Source: Pleurotus ostreatus/Saccharomyces cerevisiae fusant (taxonomy: Eukaryota; Opisthokonta). Taken from it: DNA of 33,862 bases. Below the pieces are notes generated by a model. It searched no databases. It saw only the letters and a program-made list of their open reading frames with translations, and was not told the origin of the DNA. The first letter of the stretch is position 1; every line of letters starts with the position of its first letter. The stretch covers positions 1 through 33,862 of the forward strand of contig JAMQCK010000249.1 in NCBI GenBank assembly GCA_024196135.1, given 5' to 3'. A program made the translations under genes and the position numbers. Below, piece by piece: positions 7,086 through 32,606 of this stretch.

Positions 7086-7135
7086 TGAAGCTAGAAGTAG
7101 GCAGGACGCTGCAGACTGCCGGTGCAAAGGACGCC

Positions 7136-7145
7136 TTATATATAT
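7136..7145 (-). promoter_or_regulatory. TATA-like box of O-methyltransferase copy 1
   Basis: TATATATAAG on the minus strand, about 50 nt before the ATG at 7085. The position is right for a TATA element with a very short leader. Confidence 0.5.
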
Positions 7146-7350
7146 GTAGCGTCGATGTGTTGCCCTAGAAACGTTCTCAAGAAACACGTTAGCTGGCCTG
7201 AACTCGAGTGGTATCGCGACCATGACGGAACTTGTAAAGAGCTCCGGTACTAGGATGTCGAGATAGTGTCTGCAGTCACGTCAAATCAGTCTGACCTTCA
7301 CGACGTTCCTGAGCGATACCGTACAACGTCAAGTCTATAGGATTCGATGA

Positions 7351-10264: not shown

Positions 10265-10283
10265 TACCGTGTCGCGCGTCAAC

Positions 10284-12200: not shown

Positions 12201-13667
12201 ATGTCTGCTATCCACCCAAACCAAGATCATCGCCCTATGGTCCGCTTGGCATGCCAGGTGCAGCCGTACTCGTACGGCAAGAAAGGCTCGAAGAGTCTCG
12301 CCGCGAGATACGCGCTCGCGACGCCGGAGAATGACTTCAAGCTCGACGAGGACCAGGAGTATGGAGAGGTATTTGTCTCTACCCTTCGAGGTTGGATAAT
12401 CGTGCTGAATATTCAATCCAGATCTGGATGGGTGACCACCCCAACGGTCCCTCAAAGTCTGCCGCAACCGGCGTCGAGCTCGCGACCCTAATCCAACAAC
12501 ACCCCCACGAATTCCTCAGCGCAAAAGTCGCGCAAAAGTACCCCAACCCAACCAACGGCAAGCCGCAGCTCCCCTTCCTCTTTAAGGTCCTCTCCTTCGA
12601 CAAAGCGCTCCCCTTGCAAGCGCACCCGGACAAGAAGCTCGCGGCGCAGCTCTACAAGGACGAGGAGAAGAAGCAGGGCGGCGAGCACGAGAAGTTTGTC
12701 GACACGAACCACAAGCCGGAGGTCGCGGTCGCGCTGTCGGAGACGTTCGAGGCGTTCGTGGGGTTTAGGCCGGCGGAGGAGATTGTGCAGTTCTTGCGCG
12801 ACGTGCCGGAGCTGCGCGAGTTGGTCGGATCGGACGTGTCGTCGTCGCCCGAGCTCGATAGGGAGTTGAAGGAGACGTTTGGCCGCATCTTCGACGCTAA
12901 TACTGCGACCGCGCAACGGCTTACGAAGTCGCTGGTGGCGCGCGTGGAGAAGGAGGGTGACGCCGCGCTAGGCGAGATTGGGAAGAAGGAGGGCCTCGCG
13001 CGCGTGGTAGGGAAGGTGCTCGCGCAGTATCCGAATCCGTCAACGGCCGACCAGAAGAGCATGTTCGCCGCGATCTTCTTTATGAACTTCGTCGTCGCCA
13101 AGCGCGGTGAGGGTATCGCCGTACCTGCGGACTGCATACACGCGTACTTGGAAGGCGACTGCATCGAGGTATGCTGATTCGATGGCGGCTAGTCTTCCGC
13201 GCTTACGCTCGCCGCAGTGCATGGCGACCTCCGACAACATGATCTCGTGCGGGTGGCAGGGCGCGATGGGCCCGCCAGACGACGCTAGCCTCTTCGTCAA
13301 AATGCTCCTTCATAACCCTGGTCCATCGCGCCACCTCGCGCTGCCCACGACGACCGTCTCCGCGCCGAAGGCTCGATCGGGAAAGTACACGACGGAGTAC
13401 GGCATCGACAAGTTCATGGAGGAATTTGCAATCTTGCGTGTGGACCTCCCTGGGGACGCAAAGGAGACCCTCCGACTCGCTGGCCCGGCGATCTACATCG
13501 TGACGCGCGCGGACCAGGGCGTGGAGTTCAGCATCGATGCTGACGAGCAGCGTGCGACGTTGAAGGAAGGCGAGGTGATCTTCGTGAAGCCGGACAACGA
13601 CTTGACGATTACGAGCGTGCGCGGCGGTGGGCAGGTCGAAGTGTTCGGTGCATATTGCGAGGTCTAA
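12201..13667 (+). CDS. Type I phosphomannose isomerase family protein with altered active site
   Basis: Type I phosphomannose isomerases are zinc cupins that interconvert fructose-6-P and mannose-6-P for glycosylation and wall mannan. Exons are 12201-12368, 12422-13168 and 13218-13667, giving 454 residues; the ATG at 12237 would give 442. The zinc ligands are present: Gln and His in LPLQAHPDKKLA, Glu in NHKPEVAVAL, and His in CIHAYLEGDCIECMATSDN. After SDN the usual VIRAGLTPK, holding the catalytic Arg and nearby Lys, is replaced by MISCGWQGAMGPPDD. The usual YDWG/YAWG near the N-terminus is YSYGKKGSKS. The cupin C-terminus (LKEGEVIFVKPDND, GGGQVEVFGAYCEV) is complete. Family membership is clear. 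Activity is doubtful, and a second conventional PMI gene probably exists elsewhere in the genome. Confidence 0.82.
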
Positions 13668-13878
13668 AAGTACAATGGAACTCGTGCGTTGTGTCCCCGT
13701 GTATGATTAAGTTCGAGGGATACAATAGTTGTACATGTGTGTACGACGGATCGATACTTAGATTTGGTGGACGTGCGTGAAGTCCAAGTTTGACCTTTAC
13801 CAAAGCTGGGCGAACTAATCAAGCCGTGACGTGAATATGCCTGGTGCTCGCAGCGAATGCCGGTCGACCATCAGCATT

Positions 13879-15346: not shown

Positions 15347-15805
15347 CTCGCGAGTCCAAAGGACTATATATGACCATGAGCGCCAGATCTCAAGCTCGGA
15401 GCAGCTGGACTGCCGTTGTATTCATAGTTCTGATGACGCTCCGGCCTTGCAAGAGCGTGTCCGTATCTTCTCGCGGACAGGTCAATCAAGATGTGTCCAC
15501 CGCATATGTGATATCAGCGTGAAACTGGGACGTGGCGTACATGGTGGATGCTCTAGAATAGAGGCTTCATATCTCGAGTTGGCGATCGCAGTGCGAGTGC
15601 TCCATTGTGCCCCTCGAGAGCAGTGGCCCGCTACAGTTGATCGTTATAGCCAGGGACAGGTCGATTGCGCGAGCCCCACTAACGATGAAGGTAGGGAGGG
15701 AAAAGGACAACCACGTGCGCGGCTCGCGCGTTAGTCGTGACGACGCGTGACAGAACCTTGAACTGGTACTCGTATCTGACTTTGAGCACTGAGAGTGGTG
15801 GTAGC

Positions 15806-15874
15806 GACTTGACGATCGCGGGTGTACGCGGCGGTGGTCATGTAGAGGTCTTCGGTGCATACTGCGAAGTATAA
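15806..15874 (+). pseudogene. Remnant of a second PMI-like gene, last 22 codons and stop
   Basis: Translation from 15806 gives DLTIAGVRGGGHVEVFGAYC followed by EV and a stop. The intact gene ends DLTITSVRGGGQVEVFGAYC, EV and a stop, so 19 of 22 residues are identical. DNA similarity does not extend clearly upstream. It is a fragment, not a gene. Confidence 0.75.
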
Positions 15875-15973: not shown

Positions 15974-16235
15974 GATGATCGGAAAGTGCCGATGGAACCA
16001 AATGTGAGTACACTCCACTTCGATCCTGACTCTGACCACGGTCAGCGGCGTTGGCGGCGAACATGGGAGCAGAGTTATCGGCTTCGAAAGCGAGTGACTG
16101 TGCATACGACATACTGACTTCACAGTCACAGGAGCTTCTTACGCCAGTGGACGACTGCACGCACCATCGAAGTCGCCGAGTGACAGCGGCTTCCCATGTT
16201 CCCTCAAGATAGTATGGCGAGAGCTTTCTGCTGTA

Positions 16236-16261
16236 TCAGGGGGGGGAAGGCCGCAAGCGGC
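16236..16261 (-). repeat. Helitron 3'-terminal hairpin and C-rich tail
   Basis: On the minus strand GCCGC-TT-GCGGC (16261-16250) forms a perfect stem. It is followed by CTTCCCCCCC and CTGA, then T in the flank. A hairpin about 10 nt from a CTRR end is the classical rolling-circle terminator structure. Confidence 0.7.
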
Positions 16262-16265
16262 GGGG

Positions 16266-16277
16266 TGCCGAACCTTT
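16266..16277 (+). repeat. Left (3') inverted repeat of the Helitron
   Basis: TGCCGAACCTTT, an exact inverted copy of 32593-32604. It lies inside the hairpin, as the 3' asymmetric inverted repeat does in Helitron2 elements. Confidence 0.7.
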
Positions 16278-16391
16278 CAAGGGAGGGGGTACTAGATAAT
16301 TCAAGAAAGTGATACTACATGGTACATAGAACAAAACGAAGCAGAAAAACAAGCCATTGTCAATGTAGCGACCACGCTCTGGCCCCAAAAA

Positions 16392-18191
16392 TCACATCCC
16401 CCCGTCTGAAACGTCGTCGTCGAAAGCGGGGATTGGGTCCCAAGGTGCGAGGAGGCGACCTTGCTGGACCCCAATCCAGTGATCCTCTGTGAGGGGCCCG
16501 AACATAGGTGGATCATCGTCGACCTCAGCGACGGATGCGGTCGCGGGAGCAATCATAGCGCTTGTCGAGGGGACAGGGCCGACGTGATTGCCGTCGGTAG
16601 GGACTGAGTCGACCTGCATGGCGTGGACAGCAGACGACGCACTGTTCGATTCGTGACCGACGTCGTCGACGTGCATGCTCTCACCAGGCAAGTTGACGTT
16701 GGGGGCGAGGCCGGTAGGCGACGTCGCGCCGGGGGAGGGAAGAACGGGCGAGGACGCGCGGGCGGTAGGAGGGGGCGCGTTGAGAGATGCAGCGGGTGCG
16801 TCCACAATGGGAGAGGGCACGCGACCGGTAGGAGAGGGAGCATCGACGACGGGAGAGGGCGCACGACCAGCAGGAGACGGCGCGGGAAGGGAGGGAGTGG
16901 GCGCGTCGCCGATGGCCGAGGACGCAGGGGGGGTGGGACGGTTGGGAGGAGTCCCACGCTCATTCTACAGAAGTCGATGTAAGCAAGAAGATCGGAAAAC
17001 GTCGGAGTGCGAGACTTACCTCTGGCCGCATGTTGCCGTGTATATCTACAAGCCAGTGAGACCCATCGCCTACAGGCGGAGTGGGGGACGCGCGCGGCCG
17101 GCGGATGAAGCCCAAGTCTTCGTTGATAGTGGTCCATGAAGGAAGGCGGGGGGAGGCGTCGTCCTCAGAGAGCGCGGAGGGCGACGGTGAAGGGGGCTTC
17201 TGTACAAGCCAGTTCTAGCACATTATTTGTCAGTCCATAGCATGTAAGAAGTTAAGTAGATGCAAACCTTGCGGAGGGGAGGGACAGCAACGTAGTCGAG
17301 GACGAGCGCGCCAGGTGTAGTACGCGGGGGGGCTTGGACTTTTCGGGTGGTTGTGTTCGTCGAAGTGCCGCGCTTCCTTTGCTGTGCGGCACGTCTTGCC
17401 GCCTCGGACAGCTCATCCCTGTCGAGGGGGCGGATGTCGGGTGATTGGTACGAGGGGGGAAGCGCGTTTTGGGCCTTTAAATCAGCAATGAGGTCCTCCG
17501 AGGTGGTGTGATCGTCGAACGTGAGGCGATCCTGTACGGCTGTGTTAGAAAAGGTCGTTACAATTGTATGGTACTTACAAGGTCCTCGAGCAGCTTGTGG
17601 ACGTGGCGGCGCTTCTGTTTAGCGCTATTACCCGAGCAGGGGCGCGGACCATCGATGCCGGACGTCAGCGTAGGGAGGCCACCGACGACGTACCAGGGGT
17701 TGGCCGTTTTCTCGTCCTGTGGTTGATCAGAAGAGGGTAAAATATAATATCAGATAACTTACCGGACGCTCTAGTTCGACGGCAGGCGTCACTTTGCGCT
17801 CCCTCCGTCGCGCCAAGGACATGATGTCGGAGAAGAAGTATGTGATTCGAACGATGTCGGTCGGAGGCTTAGCGTCGCTGATTGAAGCTTCGCCATACGC
17901 CTTCCAGTCAGCGACTAGAAGGTTGACATGCTGCTCCTATGAGAAAGCGTCAAGGGCTGCACAAGGACGTTGGAGGTGAGGACGTACGAGAGTCCGCGTG
18001 AGCTCGGCGATCAGCTTGTCCCTAGCATTGTTATGTCGGACGAGGGCGTCGTAGATCTGTCGGGCATCGATGGGCCGATCGGTTTCGTCCAGATGGCCTT
18101 CAAGCGCCTTCATCATCTTGTGTATGTAGTACGTGTAGTCAGGGTAGGAGATATGGGTGCGGTTGCCCGTTGGGTTGCCGTCTCTGCGCAT
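16392..18191 (-). CDS. Helitron cargo gene A: unknown protein, paralogue of gene B
   Basis: I do not recognise a named domain. Six exons fit in frame at 18191-17988, 17936-17763, 17716-17579, 17531-17268, 17214-17020 and 16964-16392, giving 515 residues. The N-terminal half is ordered and shared with gene B: PDYTYYIHKMMKALEGHLD followed by RQIYDAL, YFFSDIMSLA, NPWYVVGGLPTLTSGIDGPR and DRLTFDDHTTSEDLIADLK. The middle carries basic residues (RRAAQQRKR), a possible nuclear signal. The C-terminal third is Pro/Ala/Ser-rich with repeated PSP and PLP units (a repeat of about 14 residues built on APSPxxxxxPSPxVD), then an acidic end. It is divergent from gene B with 316 nt between starts. A structural or DNA-binding role is only a guess. 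Confidence 0.72.
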
Positions 18192-18507
18192 GGTTGACGA
18201 GGATGTTCGGTGGATGGTGAGAGATGGAGGGAAGAGAGAAGGGCATGAGGTGGCGTGCAGGACGGTGTGGCTGTGCGTCACGGTCACGCGTAGCACTCAA
18301 TGACGTCTAGTTCGGACATCAAGCGTCGCATGGGCACGAGTACATCTAGAACCGTTCGAAGAAGTGTGTACAGGCAAACGCAAAGCGACGAGGTATGCGT
18401 CGCATGGGAGGTGGTAGGCGCATGTTCGGGTGTTCCCGAGAGGTCACGAAATGTGTTACATAAGTCACATCACATACTTCTTGCCTTGAACCATCACCAG
18501 CCGCGCC
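18192..18507. promoter_or_regulatory. Divergent promoter of paralogous genes A and B
   Basis: 316 nt separate two divergent paralogous starts. A TCTAGA site lies at 18345-18350, and TCACATCACATAC lies near 18468-18480. No TATA box is evident. The designation comes from orientation. Confidence 0.45.
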
Positions 18508-20158
18508 ATGGTCAACTGTCAGCATATCAAAAGGCCCGATTTTTCATACTATATCGCCTCTATGATGAAGGAGGTAGAGAACCAGCTCGAGATTAAGTGT
18601 GAGGATGAGGATGGTCGTGTGACAGCCCGTGAGTTGTACGATGCTCTACGGCTGATACCGAAGGACGCAAGGCGGAGGCGCATTGTGAAGGCATTCCAGA
18701 CGAAGCTTGTAAGTTGTATACAAACGCTCTACTCGACGTGAAGGCTGACGACCGCAAGGTGCAATGGGCTAGCCACGCCACAGCAAAATGGGGCACCATT
18801 CCAGATGACGAAGGGAATGCGGTAGAGCTATGCGCTCCCGAGACGGCTATTGGATGCGCGTTCTTCTTCTGCGACATACTCAGCCTCGCTTTTCCTGACC
18901 ACAAGATGGCACCGTCTATAAGCGTTGGGAGACCATATGTAAGCAGATCGAGAAGGAAATAAGAAGAGAACTCATAAGTTTGTAGACGACATATAACCCA
19001 TGGTTCGCTGTAGAAGCCTTTCCTACATCTGCACAAGGGTCAGATGGGACAGACCGCGCTCGCAATCTGAAGGGTGAGTGTCTTATGTATACAATTTATC
19101 GCGAGCTGGTGCGTACAAGCAATGGCCATTGCTTCTTGCATTCTCATTGAATTATTCAGGACGACCTTCAGTTCGATGTTGAGCATGAGACGCTTGATCT
19201 CCTTATTGCGCAGCTGAAGCACGAAGGACAACTGGAGCGTGATTGGGAGGCGCCTGCCATGGGCCCCGCATCTGGACAGCGCGAGCCGAAGGGAAAGCGC
19301 ATGCGCATGAAGAAGGCGGACACCGAGTCTCCAAGCACGCGCCGTGTGTCTTCGAGGCTGGCGTCGCGGAGTGGCGTGGTATGTTATTTTCTCCATAAAC
19401 AAAGGAGCGCATTCTGATTGAGAGGCAGGGCAGTGATGTAGCTGTTCACAAGCGTGACGTTGAACGTAGCGAGGGCGAGGTTTCTCCCGGTCAGGAGACG
19501 ACGGTAGTCGAAGAAGGTGAAGGTGAGCAGGAGGGGGCTCCTTCGCCATGCACAGGAACATGCGTCGCACCGCCTGTTTCTACGTGCACGAGCGTCGTAC
19601 CTAGCATGGAGCCCGCAACGTGGGACGATTCTGTGGAGTCGGAGGCATTAGCGGTATGTGCATGTTGTCTGCCACAAAGAAACGACATGATTCTAGTTAC
19701 AGATCGACGGCGAGGAGAGCGTTGCCATTGTTGGCGTGGTGCGAACGGATGTGACAGGTTCCTGCGCTGTGAGTGGGATCTAGACGGTCTAGAATGCTGG
19801 GTGCTTACTTTACTTGTGGCCGAAGGGCCACAACATTGAGGACGAGCACTTTTTGATGGACATTGATGCAACAGGGATAGCGGCCACAGGACAGGTTGAA
19901 GTAGCCGACATCGAGATGGACGTCCTTGATCCTCGACTTCTTCACTTCCCTGCGCACTATCCCTTTCTAGATGGTGTCGCTATACCAGCCTCGGCCCTTT
20001 TCACGATGGACGTCGACATGGTTAGGTCCATTTTGCTCGGCCGACTCGTTCGTGACGACGACCTACCTTCAGACGTCATCATGTCTGATGCAGATGCGCA
20101 CGAGGTGGAGGATGAGCCAGAGTTACCGCCGCTACCATCGGATGACGAGGAGGTGTAG
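18508..20158 (+). CDS. Helitron cargo gene B: unknown protein, paralogue of gene A
   Basis: Exon 1 (18508-18708, 67 codons) and exon 2 (18759-18938) are clear; later exons begin at 18986, 19160, 19428 and about 19701. The donor near 19073 does not keep frame with the acceptor at 19159, so an extra small exon or an error is possible there. Shared blocks with gene A, in the same order, are PDFSYYIASMMKEVENQLE, RELYDAL, FFFCDILSLA, NPWFAVEAFPTSAQGSDG and DDLQFDVEHETLDLLIAQLK. A basic patch (KGKRMRMKKAD) follows. The second half is acidic (DEPELPPLPSDDEEV at the C-terminus), unlike the proline-rich tail of A. Conserved intron positions after the first block support common descent. Function is unknown. 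Confidence 0.68.
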
Positions 20159-20213
20159 GATTTAGTGTATATATTGCGATAAAAAACGGACGGTGGTGGT
20201 TCTGGATATACTA

Positions 20214-21245
20214 CTAAGCAGAGGTAATCGAAAGAGCATCGTACTCGCTGGTCTCTTGCTGCCAGGTAACTATGTTATGTAAGTCGGGGGCAGGGAAGGC
20301 GAGCATTGCCGGGCTCATCGTACCAGGAATGGGAATTACCCAGCAGTACCGGTCATACATGGATCTAATCTGGCCGTCTGCAAGCTCCCCCGATGTCATG
20401 CGTTCAAGCGCGTCAGGTCCTAGCAGCGGCGTCCAACCCCTCGCGGCATATTTCTCAAGCATCGCAATATAGAACGGTGCAGGGAAGCGAGCAGGTATGT
20501 TCACCCTGTCTAGAACAGTCGAGCGGGGATATAGGCAGACAACTCGGTCCCATTCAATGTAGTTCATGACGGCGGCTGTCAAGACAGACTTAGATGTGAC
20601 TATGAAGGGCGATAGAGCGTACTCACTGGAGTGGAAGTTCAAAACGCAAGCACGAGGATCGCCATCGCACAGAATAAGCTGTACCTTTCGACCCTCAGAG
20701 ATGAAGTCCATGACGCCTAACAAGCCGTTCGCATCGTAGTGATGGATGGAGCTGGCATTGACGCGCATACGGGTAGCCGTGACCTCTCGCGTAGCATTGA
20801 GGGCCTGCCCAGGGCGGGGGACGTACGCGTACTTGATTGTCGCAGTGAGGAAGGTGAGCATTGTCGATATGTCGTTGTGGATGTTGACGTAGACGTCTAG
20901 ATCCCTCCGAGGGAATTGGGAGCGGGATACGAGTTGAAGAGCAGATGATCCTGAGACGATAGCGCCGCTTCGACGTTGCACCACCCGAAAGGCGGTGTAT
21001 AGGTAGTCGACGGAGAAGAATTTGGATAGGACGATGGATGGATGGTAACGGCAGGCGATGAAGGCGTCGACGAGGGCTTTGTATGTGTGGGACAAGCGAC
21101 GGCAGGCAAAGAGGGTGGGCAGGTCAAGTCGGGTGAAGAACGCAAGATATAGCCTCCCGTGGAGGGGCCTGTGATGAGCATCAGAGGAAGAAGGCTGGTT
21201 GAAACGATGGGCAACATACAGAAACGGTGGTCGGGGCTGCGCCAT
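20214..21245 (-). CDS. Helitron cargo gene C: nucleotidyltransferase-fold-like protein
   Basis: A single uninterrupted ORF of 343 residues starts at the ATG at 21245. The N-terminus (LDLPTLFACRRLSHTYKALVD) resembles the helical F-box-like opening seen in many basidiomycete proteins. It is followed by IVSGSSALQLVSRSQFPRRDLDVYVN at about residues 95-120. GS followed after about 20 residues by DLDxYV is the general pattern of nucleotidyltransferase-fold proteins (GS...DxD). A later IIKY/QLILCD strand could supply the third acidic residue. The family is unnamed as far as I can tell, and enzymatic activity is not shown. It converges with gene B (55 nt) and is divergent from gene D. Confidence 0.7.
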   Translation of the reverse strand: MAQPRPPFLYVAHRFNQPSSSDAHHRPLHGRLYLAFFTRLDLPTLFACRRLSHTYKALVDAFIACRYHPSIVLSKFFSVDYLYTAFRVVQRRSGAIVSGSSALQLVSRSQFPRRDLDVYVNIHNDISTMLTFLTATIKYAYVPRPGQALNATREVTATRMRVNASSIHHYDANGLLGVMDFISEGRKVQLILCDGDPRACVLNFHSSEYALSPFIVTSKSVLTAAVMNYIEWDRVVCLYPRSTVLDRVNIPARFPAPFYIAMLEKYAARGWTPLLGPDALERMTSGELADGQIRSMYDRYCWVIPIPGTMSPAMLAFPAPDLHNIVTWQQETSEYDALSITSA

Positions 21246-21792
21246 GTCCGCGCGTCGGGGTAGGATGGTGAGAGGGAAAGAGGGGGATGTATATATGTGA
21301 GGCGTGCGCGACCGGCAGTAGCCGATGACGCGAAGTCAGACGAGTGCATGACCCGTTATCGTCAGGATAGGGTTTAGGCGTATGAATATGTTCTAGAACA
21401 AAGAACGGGCGCAGCAGTGGCTGCACATGCAGGAGGAGCTCTTGGCAGGTTATCGGGGTACGACTTTGAGGGGAAATTGTGAGATCTTAGATTCCAGATT
21501 TGGCAGAGCGATCTCATGGGTATTGATGGGAAGCTGTGGGTACTAATGCGTATTTGCTATGTAGGATCGGAGTGAGATGCGGTAGCGCTGGCAGGATTTT
21601 AGGGGCAGTTATAGGTAAATGCTTGTAAAGTAGGTAGGGAGAAGGGGGATGACGACGGTAGGGGTTGTCATGACCGCGTGCGCGGAATAAGGCACAGCGC
21701 GATCAACGACAAATAACATGCTGACCAATGGCAAAATTTGGGGCGGTCAGAAGCGGGGGGAGGGGGGAAACTTGGTCCTAGCTCCTTCCCCC
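21246..21792. promoter_or_regulatory. Divergent promoter between genes C and D
   Basis: 547 nt without a convincing gene, between divergent starts. It contains the 10-bp palindrome GTTCTAGAAC (21390-21399) and a pair of similar ATGGGTATTGATGGG/GTGGGTACTAATGCG segments at 21517-21551. The designation comes from orientation. Confidence 0.4.
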
Positions 21793-24048
21793 ATGTCAGA
21801 CCGCCCGCCGTCGTCCGTGAACAACCTCCTTCATGGATGCATCGCATCCTGGAATGAAGACGACCTTGAGCCCGGCACCGTCCGTATATATACCGCCAAG
21901 GCGCGTGCACGTATGAGGGAGCAGAACGGGTACCCTCCTATCATCAACCGCGCATACGTCGAGATCTCGGTCCCACCTCCAAGCAGTCGGGCGCGGGCAG
22001 CAGCTGTGAAGGCAAAGGACCGGCTCGGTGCGTTGTACAGGCCGTTGCTTTGGTGCTCAGCTCATGTTATGCCCCTAGCGCGCATGTCCCCTGAGGTGCA
22101 AGACTCGGATGGAACCGACGGCGATTACAGGGCCGCCGGCTATGTGTGTGAGTATTGTGGGTGGGCTGAGGATATGGTATGCTTACTGTCGCATAGCGGC
22201 CAACCGTCGTGCTGCAGGGGAGCGCCTGCACAAGAGAGGCGTTGAGATGGCGATCGAGCATGCGAATCGGGGCTCAGAGGGTATGTGTCACAATTCTAGC
22301 GCGGTGCGCGCCTCCTCCCTCATCCCATCGACGATGTGCAACATCCTACTCCTGGCCCGAACCTGGGCTACCATTATCCAGCCTCCTATGCCCGAACCTG
22401 GGCAAACTTCTCTGCACGCCGTCGATGAGGTTCGCTCCCCATGCCCGAACCTGGGCAGCCCCTTCACACATCCACCTTCCACCCATGCACCGCGCCCGTT
22501 CTGTATCCATATCCTGACCAATACCTTAGGAGCGCCGCGAGTTGATGGGCGGGAGGGAACGACCGTCTTGTCGGACGTCGATCTAGAAGATGTGCTTGAC
22601 GCCAATGAGGAGGACGAGGAGGGCTCTGAGCATGAGGTGGAGACGGATGAGGAGGATGAGGAGGTCGACGACCGTGGTTTTGCGGAGGCGAGGAGGGGGG
22701 CGCCCCTTTCATTGGCCGCGTTGAGGTCGAGGGCGCCAACGGCGGCCTCCCCCAGCGTTGCCCCCCGCGTATCCCCTTCCTATATGGCGAACGCACCTTC
22801 CTTTGTTCGAGCATCTGCACCTGAGCCGGTTGTTGGAGATCCACGGCGTGTTATACGCAAGATACGGCGTATGGCTCGCCGGGAGGGGAATGGGCTGTAT
22901 AAGAAGGAGCATATCAAGATTAAGGCGGAGCGAGCTGACAGAGAGGCGGTGGTCGCTGACGGCGCCATTCCCTTCGACGCCATGACGTCAAAGGGCTGGA
23001 CTGGCAAGGTGCCAGGCCTGAAGGGAGAGACGGCGAACTTGGACGACTTCCAGTACGTCAACTGGCAGGGCGGGTTTGTGTTTTTCACCATAGGTCGTTT
23101 GCGCGTTCTGAAGGGTGCATCGGTTCTAGACAGTTTCTATCTGTTGCGGATAGCAAGCGTCGCAGGGTCCTAGCCGGCATTCCGAACACGGATCCGGCAT
23201 TCCATAAGGAGGTTGGAGCCGTTCTAGATACGGTCGCTAACACGACGCGTACGAGCGGGCGAAACCGACGGGGCAAAGCTCTGAATGCAATCAACGTGGG
23301 GCCTTCCTTTGGCGGCGGGCAAAAGGTAAGCGTCGCACCGTTTTCTCATCTAGAAGGTTGCTCAAAGGGTGCAGGCGCCAACGAACTTCCGTAACAGCGC
23401 CCAGAACGAAGAGGCGGTGCGTAAGGCTATGGAATCCGAACCGTTGAAGTGCCTTGTGAGGACTGTCGAGCGTGAGCGCGGTTTATTGCAAAGTCGGGCA
23501 GGACGCTGACCCACACCGTTCTAGAAGCTTCGGAGGTCACCTTTACGGACTCGCATAAGTTCATGCACGGCACAGCAACAAGCCTGCATGAGCTGAGACC
23601 TCGCCTACGCCGCAACTTCGCCAACTCGGCGTTCACGTGCTCGACTTTCCACAATGGACCTCGCGCGGTAACGCTCCCCCATCGCGATGTTCTCAACCTT
23701 GCGTTCGGGATCTGCGCAGTATACGCGAGCGGCGATTACGACGCGGATCTTGGCGGGCACCTGATCCTGTGGGACCTGAAGGTTATCATCCGGTTTCCAC
23801 CAGGATGCACCCTCATCTTCCCTTCGGCGCTTATCCGTCACTCCAACATTCCTATCCAGGGGCACGAGGTGCGCCGCAGCTTTACGCTGTTCCAGCCCGG
23901 TCATCCGTCTCGGTGGGTGTACAACAAGGGGGCGACAGACAAGGAGCGTCACCAACACTTCACGAGGGCGGACTGGGAAAAGTACGCCGACGATGCGCAT
24001 CTAAGGGTGCAGAATGCCTTGAAGATGTTTCCGATTATTCCTCGATAG
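21793..24048 (+). CDS. Helitron cargo gene D: 2OG-Fe(II) dioxygenase-like protein
   Basis: The C-terminal domain matches a family that is very abundant in mushroom genomes. It holds FHNGPRAVTLPHRDVLNLAFG, DADLGGHLILWDLKVIIRFP, LIFPSALIRHSNIPI and a downstream RRSFTLF. HRD (near 23682), the later His in RHSN (near 23840) and an Arg fit the HxD...H...R iron/2-oxoglutarate site. Fungal TET/JBP-type dioxygenases linked to transposons have this arrangement, but assignment to that family is inference. Exon 1 is 21793-22147, exon 2 is 22197-22280 and exon 3 starts at 22530. Exon 3 carries a strongly acidic stretch, then IRKIRRMARREGNGLYKKEH. A middle block reads FLSVADSKRRRVLAGIP. The junctions around 23094-23135 and 23450-23530 are not resolved. 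The ATG at 21793 is chosen as the first that begins a non-repetitive N-terminus. Confidence 0.65.
22355..22456 (+). repeat. Three copies of GCCCGAACCTGGGC inside the long intron of gene D
   Basis: Exact 14-mers lie at 22355-22368, 22390-22403 and 22443-22456. Each has GCCC/GGGC arms around GAACCT and can form a short hairpin. They lie in a 249-nt intron (22281-22529), whereas nearly all other introns in the window are about 50 nt. The core CCGAACCT is also the core of the element's terminal inverted repeat. Confidence 0.8.
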
Positions 24049-24450
24049 CCCTAGACATTTTATTGTAGATGCGGTGCATACAATTTCCTCTCGTACGAAT
24101 CTAGGCCACTGCGGACGTTATAGAAGCTCTGTGCAATGAAGTCGTGTCCCATATGCACGCCAACCAAGCCCTTCGGTAACGCGGCAACAAATGATTGCAA
24201 TGGAGGAACGTGCACAATTACGACAGCAACAGGACGATCTAGATTGGTCGCGCCTATCTTTGGAGGAAGGTTTGGGGTGCATAGTGGCAACCACGTAGCA
24301 TGCGCGCGCTGCTCGAAGGTTTACTGAAATGACATGGGCAGCAATCGGTGTGTTTGGAGTGCACACGTCGGATGAATGTATATTTCGATCAGCCAAGACA
24401 GTTCTAGAACGACAAAAGCGCAGCAGATGTCAACGACGTCATAACCATGG
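24049..24450. other. Intergenic between convergent genes D and E
   Basis: No gene is recognised. It contains TCTAGA at 24238 and a second GTTCTAGAAC palindrome at 24401-24410. The 3' UTRs of both genes are expected here. Confidence 0.45.
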
Positions 24451-25824
24451 CTACTTCTTCGCAGGAGGGGCATCCTCCTCGTCCTCGGTCTGCTCGGCGG
24501 TGTCGAACATAGGTGCCTTACGCTTCTTCACCGCCTTGACAGGGCTCTGAAGCACGGCGGGGGTGCGCTGAAGGAATGTTAGCAAGTGCAGATGTGAGGA
24601 AGGGGATGACGCACACGACCGAGTACACGGATACAGACGATGCGATACTCCCAAAACGCCTCCTCACTCTTCGCCCTCACGTAGAGCTATACAATCAAGT
24701 TAGCTTGCACCAGACTGCACGTGTAGAACGGCGTACACGAGGGGTGCAGACGACCTGAAAAACGGCGCGGTCAATCATGTGGATGTCGTGGAACGACATC
24801 CTCGCCCATTCAGGGCCCGAGTCACCGGCGCATCGGACTAGAACCTCGGGAACTCTGTTGTACTTGAGATCAGGGCCCCGGCCAGCGTCCCGGAGGATGC
24901 CAAATGGATCGAGGTACTCGCTCGCGTAACCCTCCTACAAAACATCAGCAACTGCGTTGTAGTAGAAGAAGAACGCACAAACATCAAGAGGAACGTTGTT
25001 GGGGACGAAGACAGGGCGGTGTGAGACCCACCACATCGACTTTTCAGGGTCGTGGGGACAGTTCTTGTTGAGGGTGGTCGCCCCGGTGACCTTGAGAACC
25101 GTCTCGTCCTGCGTTGGGTGAGCGTAAGGGAAAAGGCAGGGGTTGTAGCACATACGGAGAGCCTCTTCTTGAAGGCGTGGAAGATATCGGTCGCTATCTT
25201 CTGCGCTGGCCCACAGGGCTGGCCAGATATGGCCCAGTTCGCAGCGCGCAGGCTCCCATTCTTGAAGGCGCTCTCGAAGCTGTACATAGATATAAGGAGG
25301 TGATCGCAAACAGCGATAGAACGAGGTACATACACCTGGGTCTCCCAGACCTTGTCGTTGATGACGGAGGTCTTCTTGTAGGAGACGTACTTGTCCGAGG
25401 GGATGAGGTCAAATGAGAGGCCAAAGGGCAGCTTGGCCGTGCTGCTGTTGTAGCCCTTGAGCACGGCTGACCCGTCAGGCCCGTTGTTGAAGGCCCAGTT
25501 TGATCTGGGCGTGATGACAACGGAATGGTTCACTCTCTCGTCCCTAGAACGGAGCATGAGGGACGGTATAGGCAGAGATGGTGTTGCGACGCACTGATAA
25601 AATAAATAGTATCCGCCGTCGCTCTCCAGACGCAGGGACGTCTTGCTGAGGACCTTCTCAAGGTCGTCGATCGCCAAGGACGTTGTCTCGTCGTCGTTGA
25701 GCTCGAGCCCAGTGAAACGATAAGCAAGGTTATTGACGGAGTGGTCGGTAAGCACGGCTAGAGCGTCGCGTGCCTCAGAGGGGAAGAGCACGTTGAGGCT
25801 GTCGTCGCTGCCGTTGTCGGACAT
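24451..25824 (-). CDS. Helitron cargo gene E: unknown protein with basic-acidic tail
   Basis: I do not recognise the family. The start is the ATG at 25824 (MSDNGSDDSLNVLF). Reading frames join with normal donors into one protein of roughly 370 residues: YLFYQ^DERVNHSVVITPRSNWAF, VWETQV^FESAFKNGSLRAANW, KKRLS^DETVLKVTGATTL, a block ending VFVPNNVPLDV, then EGYASEYLDPFGILRDAGRG and RAKSEEAFWEYRI. The C-terminus is PVKAVKKRKAPMF followed by an acidic run and PPAKK, suggesting a nuclear localisation signal. Conserved-looking aromatic blocks suggest a folded domain of about 250 residues. Its start lies 107 nt downstream of the helicase stop on the same strand, in tandem after it. Confidence 0.65.
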
Positions 25825-25931
25825 GGTGGTGGATAGCGGAAAAGGAGAGGAGGAGGGCGAAGGGTTGATTCGCACTATAAGAGGGGGACAAGATTTGAAA
25901 TTGTGGCGTAGAAACGTGGGTCTGGCGCAAG

Positions 25932-28900
25932 TCAGCCGGTCGTGAGGGAGGGGTCCATCGGAAATCGGGAGTAGTACCAGTCCAGTTGGGACAAGGAATT
26001 AATTGCGGTAGTGGTGGCGAGAGCGTCAGTCCGATTCAGCTCCTTCCTGAGCTCTTCCGAGATGTGATTCCTGATTTTTGACAGCGCAAAAGGACGGAGA
26101 ATGCAGAGACCTTTTCGTGCGCGCACGCGGGATAACATTACATACGCGCTTTGAATGTTTCTGCAACTAGCGAGGTCAATGCAGACCCTGTCGAGTGTCC
26201 TGCCTTGTGAGTTATGGGAGGTGAATGCGAACGCGGGAATAAGGGGCAACTGACGCCGGGAAGCCGAGTAAACCTTTTCTGCATTAGGCAACTTGAACTT
26301 AAACGCCTTCTTGATAGGCTTCAGGATCACACGGTGAGGATGATCAACGTCATCGCTTTTGTAGCTTGGAAAATCGACCGTTGCGCTTACCGCATAGCGT
26401 CGGCCTGAGCGCATCTCATAGACAACATCTATAAGCGTACCAAGAGAACCTTTTGAGAGGCCGAGCTCAGTTGCAATATTCTCAGTGCCGAAGACAGGCA
26501 TTCCCGGAATGAAAGGAACCTTTCCTCCCAGGTCGTCGGCGGTTTTTGGAGGAACACGCCACGCTGCTTCGGCAGCTATCCCTGCTAGTTCCTTTTGATT
26601 TTTCCCTCTACCGCGTGTATCTGTAGAGTAATAGAGAGCAAAGTCCTGGCCTGTAGCAGTAGCAAACGCTCGAGCACACTGAAGGTTGTGTGCGTCGCGT
26701 GCGGCGTTGGTGTAAGTCACAAGAGGACAGGCGCTGGAGGGTCCATTGAGCCAGTGAGAGATATTGACAAGATCCCTTGTTTCCTGTGAGCATGACGGCG
26801 ATGATAAGACATAGGAATCAAGCAAAGATTTATCTTCATCCGTACATGTTCCAGTGCGCAGGCGCGATAGAAGATCGATCAAGACATCATCGCCCTTCTG
26901 TCTCATAATCTCTGTGAGGACAACAACATGGTCAACTTGATGCCAAGCATGTATACCCTTGATTCTATGCTGGGTCGCTTCATTCAATGCGTTAAGATTA
27001 GCAGAGGCATAGCAGCGTACAAGCTCCCGATCAAATAGAGGCTTAGCCCCCGGAGGTGGCAGCTGAGCAGGATCGCCACAGAAAACTGTGTTTAGGCCTC
27101 CAAATACTGTCTCAGTGATGCCTTTTGCAACTCCACAATACTCTGACAGGATGCTCATGTCTTCTACGCCCATAAAATAGATCTCGTCAACGATGAGCGT
27201 TCGCAATGGGGCAAAGCGGTCTTCTAGCTCACGCCGTACTTTTTCACCGCCGGGCGTCGCAGCCTTCATGTTTGCACGAGGTACACAAAGGGCTGCCTCC
27301 GAATGAATTGTACACCCACCAATGTCGCTTGCAACAACACCTGTGGGTGCGGTGAGGCGGTATTCATCATCGCGTCCAATCTCCTTATGAAACTCGGACC
27401 AGGCGGTGAAGATTCTAGATTTACCTGTACCTCCAGGACCTGTGACCAGAAGACGCGTAGGTAGTAGAGGATGTGTTGACTCGCTTTGACGACCAACTTG
27501 GTCCGCAAGAATGAGAAAGGCGAGGGCCTGGCGGTCATTGAGACCATGTCTAGAAATTAGCGCAATAGCGAGCTGCTGCCAATCACGTAGGGCGGACCAC
27601 GCTGCACAGCCAATATTCCTCATTTCATATCGTTCCTTCGCAAGAGCAATCTCTGTCATTAGATCGGTAGAGAATGGGCGAGGTACGGAGAGGGATGTAC
27701 GGCTGTGCAAGAACTGATTATCGACCACATTTTCCCTTTGAGTCTTCTCGCTTCTAGAACGCTTAAAGGCTTCCTTACGACTTGCGATCGCAGCCATTGA
27801 CTTGTCCGCAATGAAATAATCGTCATCCGTGGCCAGACGACACCTGTTTGTGAATGTGTTGCTGTGGAATATAGACGTTGGAGGAGGTGTTGCGGTGTAG
27901 AAGCCATGGCTATGTGCAGCATCTAAAATTGAAAGAACCTCAGCGCTACTGCTTTCTGGAAAATGAGAAGCTTCAAGATCGTCGGGATCTACAGTGGTTT
28001 GCATTGCATTCTCCCATTCAGGATCATAGTCATCCTCGTCTGAAGCGTCGTCATTCCTTGATATTCCCGTAGACTTTAACTGTGAACTGAGCTCACAAAT
28101 ACGCTTATGCCTCTGCGCAGAATAGTCCATCTTCGCATCTCTAGAAAGGTGCAGCAGCTGCATGTTATGTATGACGGACACATGGTACATGCTAGCGGTC
28201 TGGAGAAAGGATTCATATGCTTCCAGCCAGCCTTCATTATCGTGTTTCAGCGGCGACGTCAAAGAAGTACCCCATGGCTTGAACAATGCTAGCATACAAA
28301 CAGCGTGTCTGTCCTCGTCAGTTTCTCTCTTAGGAACCGCGTAGCCAATCAGAGTGGGGACTCTAGGTTTCTCTGACGGAGTAATTTCTTTCATACAATG
28401 GGTTGTGTATTGCGGATGCTCAGGCGAAAATCGAAGGAATGTCTTACGCTGCGTTTGGGACTTCGGTAGCCGTTCTTTTGAGTAAAGGCGCATTAAATCC
28501 CACGCGCACAAACTCTGTAGCTCGGGTGGCCGATAGAAAATATCGCAGAATAGGTTGTTCAAGTTATGCATGGGCTCCACATCCACATCGGAAGAGCGGC
28601 CCATACGTTCAGCAGTCAGGATCACCAAAGGGTCATTCACGTCGTCGACGTCTTGAAGATGATCTTCATCTGGGTGTTGATCCATAAGTGTTGTAGACGC
28701 TGGGTCTAAAGGCATGACCGGTGTATTTACATGACCTATAGCGTCATCCACACTAGAAAAAGCAGAGGACACAGTGAACATGGTGGGGCATAATTGCCTT
28801 AGCATTCCAGACCAGTAAAAAGGAGGATACGCCCGATTTGTGTAGTAGGACGGCAGGTTCAATAGGCTGCTCGCAACTTGTTGGCTAGAAAGCTCCCGCT

Positions 28901-31900
28901 TACCCACAAGTTTGTTAACGGTCTTGATCATCAGCATGCGACTGCGCTCGTCAGCATCAACTTCACCATCAAGGGTAACAGGAGGTTGTGCCTTTAGAGC
29001 TTTTATAGAAGCGCATAGAGCGGAAAATACAAAGGCAGTGTCCATGGCAAACTTGGTTGTGTATTGCCCAATGTACTGGAACATTGCCATCGCGACAGTC
29101 CCAGAGCCAATTGGCTTGATATCCATGTTACAACGCTCTGTTGCGACAATCTCCGGGCAGTATCCATTGACGCGACCGTCGTCACAGCGTAAAACAACAC
29201 CATCCTCTTCAGAAATATGAGATTCAGAGACAGTAGGACGAGGAAGGTTGAAACGACAGTCCTTGTCGTCGTCGCGAAGAGATCTGATGTTTGTGGGAAG
29301 ATGCTTATAACAGGTCCCACTGTGCTCATGAATCTGTGCCGTATTCTCTAGAACGTTACGTAGATCCTGTTTAAATGAAGAATCAAAGTCAGAAGCAGAA
29401 GGGTTCAAAGGACGACACATGACGGGCTGGCGGAGGTATTGATGTGCAGAGCGATCATAAGGGTGAGTCCCTTCAGGTAGCGATTGACTTATAATGCTGT
29501 CATACCATGCTAGAAGCTTATTGGCAAAATCAGGGTTGTCTTTGATACGCTGTTTGATATCAAGAGGGGATAGACCATGACGGAGCCAAAGAAGCATATG
29601 GATATGAAGAGATCCGCGACCCTGAGCCTCGACAACACCATAGTACGCGCTGATCTCACCAAAGAGACCGACCTTGCTACTTCGCTCAGTTCCGAGCAGA
29701 ATTCCCAACAAATTCTGAACAGAAAAATGGAAGAATTGAGCACCGGCAACTGGATTTTGAGAAAGAAGTGAAGTTCGCTCAATATTCTCAGCGTCCGGGG
29801 AGAGAGAGTCGAAGAATTTGTCAAGGTCAATGTCACGACCTGCAAGAACTGCGGCGATAGGGTTGTTGGTATCACTTACGTTTAGGGTGAGAAATAAATG
29901 TGGAATACCATCCGTATTCACAGTAGAAAAGAGCTCATGGCGCATTCTTTGCACATCTGCCATGGATCCAGGTATATGCTCAGCCACAATGTTGACATAG
30001 TTTATTAATCTGAGAGCAGCGCGCTCGCCGTCAGTGTCAGGTTTTGCATAGGGGTTTTTTGCAAGCTTCTCCATAAACGCACTTATGGTTTCTTCGCCGA
30101 TCATGGAGTATAGAGCATCAACTTTGGAGAACCAGGAGCGCTTCACCGCAAGACTGGTCGAGAACGATGTTTTAGAACGTAAAATGATATTATGCATGAC
30201 AAAAATGAAGGAAAGGTGTGTTTGGAAGCGACGGTCAGAACCAGACTGTAACACATGGGATATGTGTGTGCGTAGATCAATGGATCGGAAACCAAGAGAA
30301 TTGTCTGACTGTGTAAAATCAGAGTACATCATACCAACACCATAGGGAAACAAAGTCGGCCAAAGGTGACCAAAGACGTCAGGATTTTGCCGAGTCGGGA
30401 GTGGAATAGAGCCACCCGGATACTTGATAAAAGGATAACCGCGCTTAAGCTGCTGCAGTGCATCCAGCTTACGCATTTTATATGTAGAGTCAACACGGTC
30501 CGAGTCGACAATTGTGCTTGAAGGCATAGCAGCACTTGCGACGTTTGCAGAAAAATTCTCATTATCAGCTTGAGCAACATACGACGAGCCCTCCGTTGAC
30601 GTTGATGCAGTCCTAAGAATGCTTTGAACGGGAATGGGAACATCACATTCAGGGTAATCAGATGCATTGCGCAACACCTCGTTCACGTCAAGATCTGCAT
30701 ATAATGGGTTGTTCGCAATGAGCCAGACAAGAGCGTTGACAATTTTGGAACGCCGAACGAGAAGAGGGGTGCGCCGGAGCATTTCTATCGAGATATCAGT
30801 CGTAGGTGAACCAACAAGGATTACACAGATCTCATCGTGAAGGACGGATAGCGGAGGAGGTAAGGACGTAAGCAGAGGGCTAGGATCCTGAGCAAATATA
30901 CAGACATTGCCACGGGATGCAAACTGGCCAGCAGGTCCGAGTTCAAGCTTGAACATGCACCGCGTGGCACGCGCGCGGGCAATGCATTGCTCCTCTAGAA
31001 AGGTCAACCCTTGTAGCTCGGCAGGGACTGGCCCCCGCCATAAGCCGTTTGCATAGCTGCGAAGAGGTATGCGCTGGAATTTTGAGCGGGATACATCACT
31101 AGAACAGCTGCGGCACAAACAATAACAGTCGTTTCTGATCGTCGAGGGTTCGAAGACGCGGATATGAGGCTGCCTCGAAAGTGCTTGGAGATGTTGAACA
31201 GCCGTATCAAGAAGCGATATATCGAGCCTACCGCAAGGAATAAATTCGGCGTGCTTCATAGCTTCTAGAAACCCACAAAACGAGCATTCTACCTGGGCGA
31301 CAGATGCAGCATTTGTGGCGTCGAAGTATTCCTGCATAATGTCCTTCTTCTCTTCTGATGTAAGTATACGGAGCCAGCCATTGCTGTCTAGTACACCGTT
31401 GTCTAGAAGTTCAGTCTGCATCGGTTGCGTATTAATTGGAGGCTGAACGCGGGCACGCTTGACGGGTGAAGACGGGGTTGTCTTCAGCTGCAATGTTTTA
31501 GCACACAAAAGGAACTCACGTTCCGTAAGAGATATGGGATTATCTAGAAACAAACAGGCATCGTCGACGTCGGCATGACGAATTAAACAAGCAGATGTGC
31601 ATACGTGAGCCTTGAACATATCGCGCATCATCTGAACAGGTTTCCTTCTTTTCGTGCGAGAATCAGGAGGTGTGTAATACGCATTCACACCGGCATGAAA
31701 TGTCACTAGCTCAAGAAGGTCTGCACTCCGGCACTCGCGTTTCTGAGTAAGGGTACGTACGACACGGGTTTTCTGGTCGAGGGGGAGGCGGACGAAAAGA
31801 GAAGCATGGAGGTCATCGCAGGGCTGCTTACGCTTCTTGCGTGTAGGAGTCACAGGCTGGTCAGCGGGGGCATTCATTCGGTTATCATCAGATGGCAGTG

Positions 31901-32453
31901 ACGCCGTGTGAAAGACAGAAATGTTACAATCCGTAGCACTAGTAGATGACGAGGTTGTGGTAATGGTAGGACTGGTATGGGCAAGGTTAGGATGTGGTAT
32001 GTGATGTGATGACATGAAGGAGTTAGCAGCTATATTTACCTGAGAGAAGTGTGAGCAAGTGAGCGAAGGAAGCGCGCATATGGACGTACCGAACTCGCAG
32101 GTGTAGCAGGTGTCGAGGAAGACAGGGACGTGTGGGAGGGCTGGGGGGACAACGAAGGCGACTGCTGGCAGACATGTAAGCACAGGCATCCACAGTGGGG
32201 CAAGAGATACAGAAGGACGAACATTATCAAACAGCGGCCACCGTTGCAAGTACAGCGACATGTCGACATCTGACACGTGATTGTTTGACGTTGACGCGGC
32301 ATTCGAAGGTGGCGACTCAGGAAATTGAGATGGGCCATCTTGGGAGCTGTAGTGCACGAAACGCATGCGGAGAGTGCGAGAGGAAAGTGGGAGGAGGAAG
32401 CAACGAACACGACAATGAAGTAAGACAAATACATCGAGGCAACGATGCGACAT
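25932..32453 (-). CDS. Helitron Rep-helicase (HUH nuclease plus PIF1-type helicase)
   Basis: One uninterrupted ORF of 2173 residues. An N-terminal Cys-rich region (CSFCGFLEAMKHA, CYCLCRSCSSDVSR) is followed by YANGLWRGPVPAELQGLT and EEQCIARARA, as in fungal Helitron helicases. The Rep part has the HUH motif in GSLHIHMLLWLRHG (about residue 950) and the tyrosine segment YIGQYTTK (about residue 1130). The helicase part has Walker A LLVTGPGGTGKSR (about residue 1675), Walker B LIVDEIYFMG, FCGDPAQLPPPG, LTEIMRQKGD, FTSHNSQGRTLDRV and YVMLSRVRARKGL (about residue 2115). All catalytic motifs are intact, so the protein could be active. The region is visibly more AT-rich than the host genes. The true start may be internal: the first ATG overlaps a TGACGTAG repeat. 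Confidence 0.93.
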   Translation of the reverse strand: MSHRCLDVFVLLHCRVRCFLLPLSSRTLRMRFVHYSSQDGPSQFPESPPSNAASTSNNHVSDVDMSLYLQRWPLFDNVRPSVSLAPLWMPVLTCLPAVAFVVPPALPHVPVFLDTCYTCEFGTSICALPSLTCSHFSQVNIAANSFMSSHHIPHPNLAHTSPTITTTSSSTSATDCNISVFHTASLPSDDNRMNAPADQPVTPTRKKRKQPCDDLHASLFVRLPLDQKTRVVRTLTQKRECRSADLLELVTFHAGVNAYYTPPDSRTKRRKPVQMMRDMFKAHVCTSACLIRHADVDDACLFLDNPISLTEREFLLCAKTLQLKTTPSSPVKRARVQPPINTQPMQTELLDNGVLDSNGWLRILTSEEKKDIMQEYFDATNAASVAQVECSFCGFLEAMKHAEFIPCGRLDISLLDTAVQHLQALSRQPHIRVFEPSTIRNDCYCLCRSCSSDVSRSKFQRIPLRSYANGLWRGPVPAELQGLTFLEEQCIARARATRCMFKLELGPAGQFASRGNVCIFAQDPSPLLTSLPPPLSVLHDEICVILVGSPTTDISIEMLRRTPLLVRRSKIVNALVWLIANNPLYADLDVNEVLRNASDYPECDVPIPVQSILRTASTSTEGSSYVAQADNENFSANVASAAMPSSTIVDSDRVDSTYKMRKLDALQQLKRGYPFIKYPGGSIPLPTRQNPDVFGHLWPTLFPYGVGMMYSDFTQSDNSLGFRSIDLRTHISHVLQSGSDRRFQTHLSFIFVMHNIILRSKTSFSTSLAVKRSWFSKVDALYSMIGEETISAFMEKLAKNPYAKPDTDGERAALRLINYVNIVAEHIPGSMADVQRMRHELFSTVNTDGIPHLFLTLNVSDTNNPIAAVLAGRDIDLDKFFDSLSPDAENIERTSLLSQNPVAGAQFFHFSVQNLLGILLGTERSSKVGLFGEISAYYGVVEAQGRGSLHIHMLLWLRHGLSPLDIKQRIKDNPDFANKLLAWYDSIISQSLPEGTHPYDRSAHQYLRQPVMCRPLNPSASDFDSSFKQDLRNVLENTAQIHEHSGTCYKHLPTNIRSLRDDDKDCRFNLPRPTVSESHISEEDGVVLRCDDGRVNGYCPEIVATERCNMDIKPIGSGTVAMAMFQYIGQYTTKFAMDTAFVFSALCASIKALKAQPPVTLDGEVDADERSRMLMIKTVNKLVGKRELSSQQVASSLLNLPSYYTNRAYPPFYWSGMLRQLCPTMFTVSSAFSSVDDAIGHVNTPVMPLDPASTTLMDQHPDEDHLQDVDDVNDPLVILTAERMGRSSDVDVEPMHNLNNLFCDIFYRPPELQSLCAWDLMRLYSKERLPKSQTQRKTFLRFSPEHPQYTTHCMKEITPSEKPRVPTLIGYAVPKRETDEDRHAVCMLALFKPWGTSLTSPLKHDNEGWLEAYESFLQTASMYHVSVIHNMQLLHLSRDAKMDYSAQRHKRICELSSQLKSTGISRNDDASDEDDYDPEWENAMQTTVDPDDLEASHFPESSSAEVLSILDAAHSHGFYTATPPPTSIFHSNTFTNRCRLATDDDYFIADKSMAAIASRKEAFKRSRSEKTQRENVVDNQFLHSRTSLSVPRPFSTDLMTEIALAKERYEMRNIGCAAWSALRDWQQLAIALISRHGLNDRQALAFLILADQVGRQSESTHPLLPTRLLVTGPGGTGKSRIFTAWSEFHKEIGRDDEYRLTAPTGVVASDIGGCTIHSEAALCVPRANMKAATPGGEKVRRELEDRFAPLRTLIVDEIYFMGVEDMSILSEYCGVAKGITETVFGGLNTVFCGDPAQLPPPGAKPLFDRELVRCYASANLNALNEATQHRIKGIHAWHQVDHVVVLTEIMRQKGDDVLIDLLSRLRTGTCTDEDKSLLDSYVLSSPSCSQETRDLVNISHWLNGPSSACPLVTYTNAARDAHNLQCARAFATATGQDFALYYSTDTRGRGKNQKELAGIAAEAAWRVPPKTADDLGGKVPFIPGMPVFGTENIATELGLSKGSLGTLIDVVYEMRSGRRYAVSATVDFPSYKSDDVDHPHRVILKPIKKAFKFKLPNAEKVYSASRRQLPLIPAFAFTSHNSQGRTLDRVCIDLASCRNIQSAYVMLSRVRARKGLCILRPFALSKIRNHISEELRKELNRTDALATTTAINSLSQLDWYYSRFPMDPSLTTG

Positions 32454-32494
32454 GACGTAGCTACGCTGATGCTGACGTAGCTATGCTGACGTAG
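32453..32494 (-). repeat. Three TGACGTAG repeats at the helicase 5' end
   Basis: On the plus strand TGACGTAG occurs at 32453-32460, 32473-32480 and 32487-32494, two of them within longer TGACGTAGCTAYGCTGA units. The first overlaps the predicted start codon. They resemble CRE/ATF-type sites (TGACGTAA/G) and may control helicase transcription. Confidence 0.6.
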
Positions 32495-32592
32495 AAAGCA
32501 TCTAGACAGTTCTGGACCTTTAACTATAAATGGATAAAATCTCCTTAAAAGGAAACCTGCTATCAATCGAGTTCTCATATAGAGCCAAACCT

Positions 32593-32604
32593 AAAGGTTC
32601 GGCA
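32593..32604 (-). repeat. Right (5') inverted repeat of the Helitron
   Basis: AAAGGTTCGGCA on the plus strand, the exact inverse of 16266-16277. Its inner edge extends into a small AACCT-AA-AGGTT palindrome. No hairpin-plus-tail lies outside it, which is the expected asymmetry. Confidence 0.68.
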
Positions 32605-32606
32605 AT

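Follow-up and report, generated by a model that had tools for sequence, protein, structure and literature searches.

Does a stretch of fungal DNA with a rolling-circle transposase gene between exact inverted repeats form one large Helitron carrying five further genes, or a smaller transposon with other genes beside it? The question is raised by contig JAMQCK010000249.1 of assembly GCA_024196135.1, from a Pleurotus ostreatus/Saccharomyces cerevisiae fusant. This contig (C446) was analysed over its entire 33,862 nucleotides, referred to below as the window; the assembly comprises 40 Mb in 1277 contigs. A preliminary description, made from the letters alone, had placed a Helitron of 16.4 kilobases (kb) at 16236..32606. 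We found that the locus is very probably best explained as a full-length Helitron that is structurally intact and has ends of the Helitron2 type, with cargo genes A to E lying between the transposase gene (RepHel) and the 3' end.

Element boundaries and the empty site

The element covers 16236..32605 on the minus strand (16,370 base pairs, bp), within 1 bp of the coordinates first proposed. In RepHel orientation it begins with TTGCC and ends with CTGA, the adjoining bases being A at 32606 and T at 16235. These limits are based on an allelic empty site and on copies with the same ends. The empty site was found on contig C1077 of the same assembly, which matches the window up to 16236, resumes from 32605 and has nothing between, and the junctions of the element are therefore exact. 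Identity between the two contigs is 89-90% in the left flank and 93% in the right flank. Read along the RepHel strand, the filled site is A, then TTGCCGAACC...CCCCTGA, then T, and the empty site has a plain AT. The filled allele has gained 16,370 bp at A^T with a target duplication of 0 bases, and the alleles differ at one base close to the junction (TCTTTA vs TCGTTA). All 16,370 bp, genes A to E included, are explained by a single insertion at A^T. A boundary closing tightly around the helicase gene, which the preliminary description had named as the outcome that would leave the five genes outside, is ruled out by C1077, where the empty site encloses the whole 16.4 kb. It was also found that C446 and C1077 are identical for 674 bases at the start and 545 bases at the end, as expected for two haplotypes of one locus.

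Terminal structure and related copies

The 5' end (32584..32605, minus strand) starts with TT and contains one copy of a 12-bp asymmetric inverted repeat (32593-32604) within an 8-bp hairpin at 32584-32603, GCCGAACC-TTTA-GGTTTGGC. The second copy lies at 16266..16277 (minus strand). As had been reported at the outset, the two 12-mers are exact, with TGCCGAACCTTT on the minus strand at 32593-32604 and its complement at 16266-16277, lying 1 bp inside the 5' end and 30 bp inside the 3' end. When pairs of 60-base segments were sampled at random from the window 20,000 times, an inverted exact match of at least 12 bases was obtained in 4 samples; overlapping pairs were passed over without a record of how many there were. 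Directly downstream of the 3' repeat, in element orientation, stands the palindrome GCCGCTTGCGGC (16250..16261, minus strand), 14 nucleotides from the 3' end, followed by a C-rich tail with the terminal CTGA (16236..16249, minus strand) and then T. The 5' hairpin folds with a z-score of -1.96 in the window and -3.20 in the C1 copy described below; the 3' hairpin of the C1 copy is weak by folding energy (z -1.54). The preliminary description had assigned a hairpin, C-rich tail and CTGA before T to the 3' side only. The palindrome, tail and terminus are indeed present there, but the 5' end has its own 8-bp hairpin.

A search of the assembly with each end gave five matches per end, the window included, one match being the empty-site flank on C1077. 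Contigs C1090, C1 and C1057 carry both ends and hold elements of 3453, 3688 and 3658 bp. A fifth locus, C121, has the 3' end only, with gene A and most of gene B adjoining it. The proposed search with the terminal segments led to three complete elements without RepHel and one partial copy, so that the other refuting outcome in the preliminary description, ends present at no further locus, did not arise. All four complete copies, the window's among them, begin with TT after an A and end with CTGA before a T, and C121 likewise ends with CTGA before T. The palindrome occurs in 5/5 loci having the 3' end; together with the C-rich tail and CTGA before T it was present in all four loci other than the window.

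We then compared these ends with those of described Helitron groups. The Helitron2 layout consists of short asymmetric inverted repeats, the 5' copy 0-2 bp from the end within a 5' hairpin and the 3' copy set back by about 20-30 bp and followed by a 3' hairpin, as given in the description of the group (Bao and Jurka 2013, PMC3627910). The repeats here are 12 bp long (8-15 expected), at distances of 1 bp (5') and 30 bp (3'), and the 5' copy participates in the 5' hairpin; the T at the 5' end is also common to both. The end structure fits an assignment to Helitron2. For the Chlamydomonas elements that description gives insertion between TTTT and T/C (PMC3627910), which differs from the A^T target and CTGA terminus found here; size and cargo differ too. 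The latter two features are of Helitron1 type: CTGA, a form of CTRR, is present in 5/5 loci with this end, and A and T flank 4/4 complete copies. The 5' hairpin and inverted repeats, and TT in place of a 5' TC in 4/4 complete copies, depart from Helitron1. Judged by sequence, the ends combine a Helitron2 layout with a Helitron1-type CTGA (CTRR) terminus and A^T target, which bears on the relation between both groups. The match to Helitron2/Helentron termini suggested earlier holds for the Helitron2 layout; the terminus and target are Helitron1-type, and with no endonuclease domain detected the element falls outside the Helentrons as strictly defined.

The three short elements have 91-93% identity to one another across approximately 3.1-3.7 kb, and each has only 42-54 bp per end in common with the window element. 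Searches with tblastn using A, B, C, E (initial model) and RepHel found nothing below an E-value of 0.75 in the three short elements; the last exon of D and the E homologue P0123 had no match in these elements or in C121. That the short elements arose from the window element by deletion is ruled out, the DNA match being confined to the ends; they are presumably mobilised in trans. A palindrome inside the short elements (L012 from 1566) recurs on C523, C572, C1057, C1081, C480, C739, C913 and C560; on C523, C572 and C1057 it comes in pairs spaced about 240-290 bp, which resemble the termini of a small repeat family in its own right.

At the DNA level the A-B stretch matched only itself and C121 in the assembly, in a search that scores the best candidates, so that absence is not proof. 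A and B were already part of the family when the C446 and C121 copies separated (approximately 9% in aligned bases). The first 336 bp of C121 (L014:1-336) are unrelated to the window element, and its match to gene B ends at window position 19887.

RepHel and the cargo genes

RepHel (25932..32453, minus strand) is an intronless open frame of 2173 residues with DUF6570, Helitron_like_N and PIF1-like helicase domains. Its catalytic motifs comprise the HUH histidines H950/H952, the tyrosines Y1127/Y1131 and a Walker A motif at 1672, in agreement with the complete HUH/PIF1 protein seen initially. The HUH motif, two tyrosines and PIF1-like helicase, together with insertion without target-site duplication, place the element in the Helitron superfamily. 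The protein search returned 241 matches (7981 candidates scored); a Collybiopsis confluens protein was the best among the matches listed, with 61% identity across residues 440-1000 and 55% in an alignment of eight proteins. Pfam detected no endonuclease or OTU domain in RepHel at E 0.01. Of the published Helentron Rep signature (S before P-H-x-H, with F/Y-x-R upstream), the sequence RGSLHIH retains S with L replacing P, and the upstream YYG lacks R.

In element direction the gene order is RepHel(+), E(+), D(-), C(+), B(-), A(+), with all cargo 3' of RepHel. Five cargo genes had been proposed and five can be modelled, D only roughly; four of the five models have introns, and C, D and E retain open frames. 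Gene A (16392..18191, minus strand; 6 exons, 515 residues) has a close match in Schizophyllum commune EV714 (P0121), with 97% identity over a 340-residue alignment, 6 mismatches and 2 gap openings. A more distant relative occurs in S. commune FB107 (P0122; 68% over 325 residues). Gene B (18508..20158, plus strand; 7 exons, 448 residues) is a paralogue of A (31% identity, E 4e-24). Outside the assembly an A/B profile found two proteins, both from S. commune, among the 7996 scored candidates sharing most words. Gene E (24451..25824, minus strand; 7 exons, 358 residues) is an orphan whose splicing was guided by S. commune EV121 P0123, from which it differs at 3 of 358 residues. The matches of A and E indicate that the DNA very probably comes from S. 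commune or a very close relative. The protein search with its initial model gave one match, from S. commune; within the assembly that model matched only its own gene among the best candidates scored, where absence is not proof. Pfam gave nothing above the curated cut-off for corrected A, corrected B or P0123 (A matched DUF2795 at 0.14), nor for the initial models of A to E.

Gene C (20214..21245, minus strand; 343 residues in a single frame) shows a GS...DLD pattern shared by at least 22 matches in this genome, itself included, some of them two pieces of one gene. On this pattern it is labelled putatively F-box-like and nucleotidyltransferase-like, labels with no profile match behind them. By sequence, gene C had two matches in PDB at E 0.73, which were taken as chance. 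Gene D (21793..24048, plus strand) has a 2OG-Fe(II) dioxygenase-like last exon with the family residues H-x-D, H and R; its upstream exons are approximate, the last alternative lacking clean splice sites at two boundaries. The last-exon family has at least 22 matches in this genome, itself included, and H-x-D, H and R are invariant in eight aligned members. Profile matches of the family are weak, with Tet_JBP found for 5/8 members (best 0.0048) and 2OG-FeII_Oxy_3 for 3/8; gene D itself reached 0.085 against Tet_JBP, short of the cut-off. In PDB it had 0 matches, both by sequence alone and as a profile, and no TET structure was matched. The product of gene D is predicted to be dioxygenase-like, remotely resembling TET/JBP. 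Predicted structures of P0123 and of the D domain had a mean pLDDT of 33 each and were unusable. On C363 and again on C398, one C-family and one D-family member were seen approximately 18 kb apart.

Selection on the cargo was assessed from the ratio of nonsynonymous to synonymous rates (dN/dS; NG86, codons with gaps excluded) against the C121 copies. The ratio was 0.59 for gene A (bootstrap 0.39-0.83; 498 codons) and 0.39 for gene B (bootstrap 0.24-0.70; 346 codons, the extent of the C121 match). The C121 copy of gene A is broken by exon deletions of 1 and 19 bp and by a 540-bp insert. This insert (L014:3602-4141) has TG...CA ends with TTCCT on both sides, like a solo long terminal repeat.

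Origin and role of the cargo

Published work on Helitrons suggests how such an element would move. RepHel would nick both ends and displace a single strand, which would then be circularised and integrated between A and T, with no target duplication. The 5' end would fold as a hairpin. Pairing between the 3' and 5' repeats would also be possible, an arrangement that has been proposed for termination of Helitron2 replication. Genes A to E were most likely acquired 3' of RepHel, the side to which read-through beyond an older 3' terminator would attach neighbouring DNA, and they may now ride as cargo. Capture through bypass of the 3' end is a published model, and the genes of HELPO1 Helitrons likewise lie downstream of RepHel.

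Several observations weigh against a complete gene-carrying Helitron of this kind or against upkeep of its cargo. RepHel and all five genes are known together at one locus, and movement of the whole 16.4-kb unit has been seen no more than once. The C-E stretch of DNA matched only itself in the assembly, again among the best candidates scored, with absence no proof. In the window the 3' hairpin folds no better than shuffles (z -0.20, with 78 of 200 shuffles doing as well), and the interior of the element shows no remnant of an earlier 3' end, the resemblances to the end motifs there being weak and partial. For gene A the YN00 ratio is 0.76 and that of the first 200 codons 0.75, and identity between the window and C121 is 91% for coding and non-coding bases alike. 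Because of these ratios and the equal identity, selection on A and B would appear to be moderate at best, or confined to one lineage.

The single locus and the mixed directions of the cargo genes could also point to a composite, in which a smaller Helitron stands beside separate insertions or a chromosomal gene block and the cargo lies outside the element. This is highly improbable and would require C446 to be misassembled, as one empty site covers all 16,370 bp, end motifs inside the element are only weak partial matches, and C121 has A and B adjoining the same 3' end. A shade more improbable still is an assembly artefact in which C446 is a false join of unrelated pieces and the real locus is that of C1077. 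The assembly is fragmented into its 1277 contigs and the two contigs have identical ends, which could suit such a fusion; yet two haplotypes of a locus would give such common ends, and the insert starts and stops exactly at the motifs ending three other elements, with A and T flanking.

Granting a real Helitron, the cargo may be passive, with A to E trapped by 3' read-through and drifting without function for element or host, a reading to which we give somewhat less than an even chance. Published Helitrons frequently trap genes, according to accounts of HELPO1 and a general review (PMC4289320, PMC6431247), C and D come from families with many members in this genome, and the broken gene A on C121 and the equal coding and non-coding identity are in keeping with drift. 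Against it stand the ratios below 1 for A and B, with bootstrap upper bounds of 0.83 and 0.70, the open frames of C, D and E with the family residues kept in D, and a protein E that is almost unchanged in S. commune EV121. A clearly less likely and tentative reading is that A to E are maintained as an accessory module within a giant Helitron2 lineage, in which the dioxygenase-like D and the nucleotidyltransferase-like C might counter silencing and the duplicated, lineage-specific pair A/B, with E, might take part in transposition or in control of the host. For gene D alone, our best guess is that it could counter silencing by DNA methylation; an account of TET genes in fungal transposons has proposed silencing escape for them (PMC12730594). 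A maintained module, if true, would make the element a self-contained multi-gene rolling-circle unit and not a transposase with trapped passengers.

Comparison with known systems places this Helitron among several published gene-carrying ones, namely HELPO1, proto-Helentron and TET-carrying elements (PMC4289320, PMC4067079, PMC12730594). Proto-Helentron-Pi of Phytophthora infestans, as described in PMC4067079, is of similarly large size (approximately 14 kb) and shares the 5' TT, a CTRR-type 3' end, the A^T target, several extra genes, an intronless RepHel without endonuclease and a boundary proven by an empty site. The corresponding features here are TT, CTGA (CTRR, not CTAG itself), A^T, five extra genes and no endonuclease match. 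It differs in its oomycete host and in its cargo of SET domain and hypothetical proteins, and its description makes no mention of asymmetric repeats (PMC4067079). The HELPO1 Helitrons of Pleurotus ostreatus are likewise from a basidiomycete and share A^T insertion, a CTRR end and a subterminal hairpin. Downstream of their RepHel they hold one to four captured genes, for many of which no relatives are known. They differ in size (1.5-13.7 kb), in a T[C/G] 5' end and in a RepHel of about 1400 residues, and asymmetric repeats go unmentioned in the account of them (PMC4289320). The same account reports a capB relative adjoining RepHel in S. commune. The preliminary view that fungal Helitrons usually carry only the helicase was too strong, since every intact Pleurotus HELPO1 is said there to carry one to four genes (PMC4289320). 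FoHeli of Fusarium oxysporum, by its description, shares asymmetric inverted repeats, non-canonical ends, non-autonomous partners and the lack of an endonuclease, and differs in size (5-11 kb), end letters and targets (PMC5148889). The TET-carrying fungal transposons are alike in having a dioxygenase gene within a Helitron, including an Agaricus bisporus Helitron2, as reported by Kojima (2025, PMC12730594). The dioxygenase of the Agaricus transposon type has H-x-E, whereas gene D has H-x-D and matches Tet_JBP weakly.

According to the figures of a 2019 review, fungal Helitrons reach 14 kb and maize Helitrons 39 kb, and capture of full-length host genes by Helitrons is exceptionally rare (PMC6431247). 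At 16.4 kb with five genes, the present element exceeds the reviewed fungal size and falls below that of maize. New here is a large gene-carrying Helitron with exact boundaries, not a new kind of element; no earlier report naming it was found in a literature search confined to open-access papers. Helitrons are known mainly as movers of gene fragments, and here five open gene models lie within base-exact ends, two with dN/dS below 1. Near-identical A and E proteins are present in other strains of S. commune, a laboratory mushroom. Whether the cargo of a Helitron is of use to it can now be put to the test.

The element lies among host genes. Carbamoyl-phosphate synthase small chain and phosphomannose isomerase genes flank it (10269-11525, 12392-13177), and a short-chain dehydrogenase runs from 32809 onward, its apparent start (32809) approximately 200 bp from the insertion. 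In the left flank, which is otherwise 89-90% alike between haplotypes, positions 5945-7353 match poorly (67% over 574 bases). A diverged repeat of about 70 bp was also noted there at 13598-13669 and 15805-15874, and C1077 has this repeat too.

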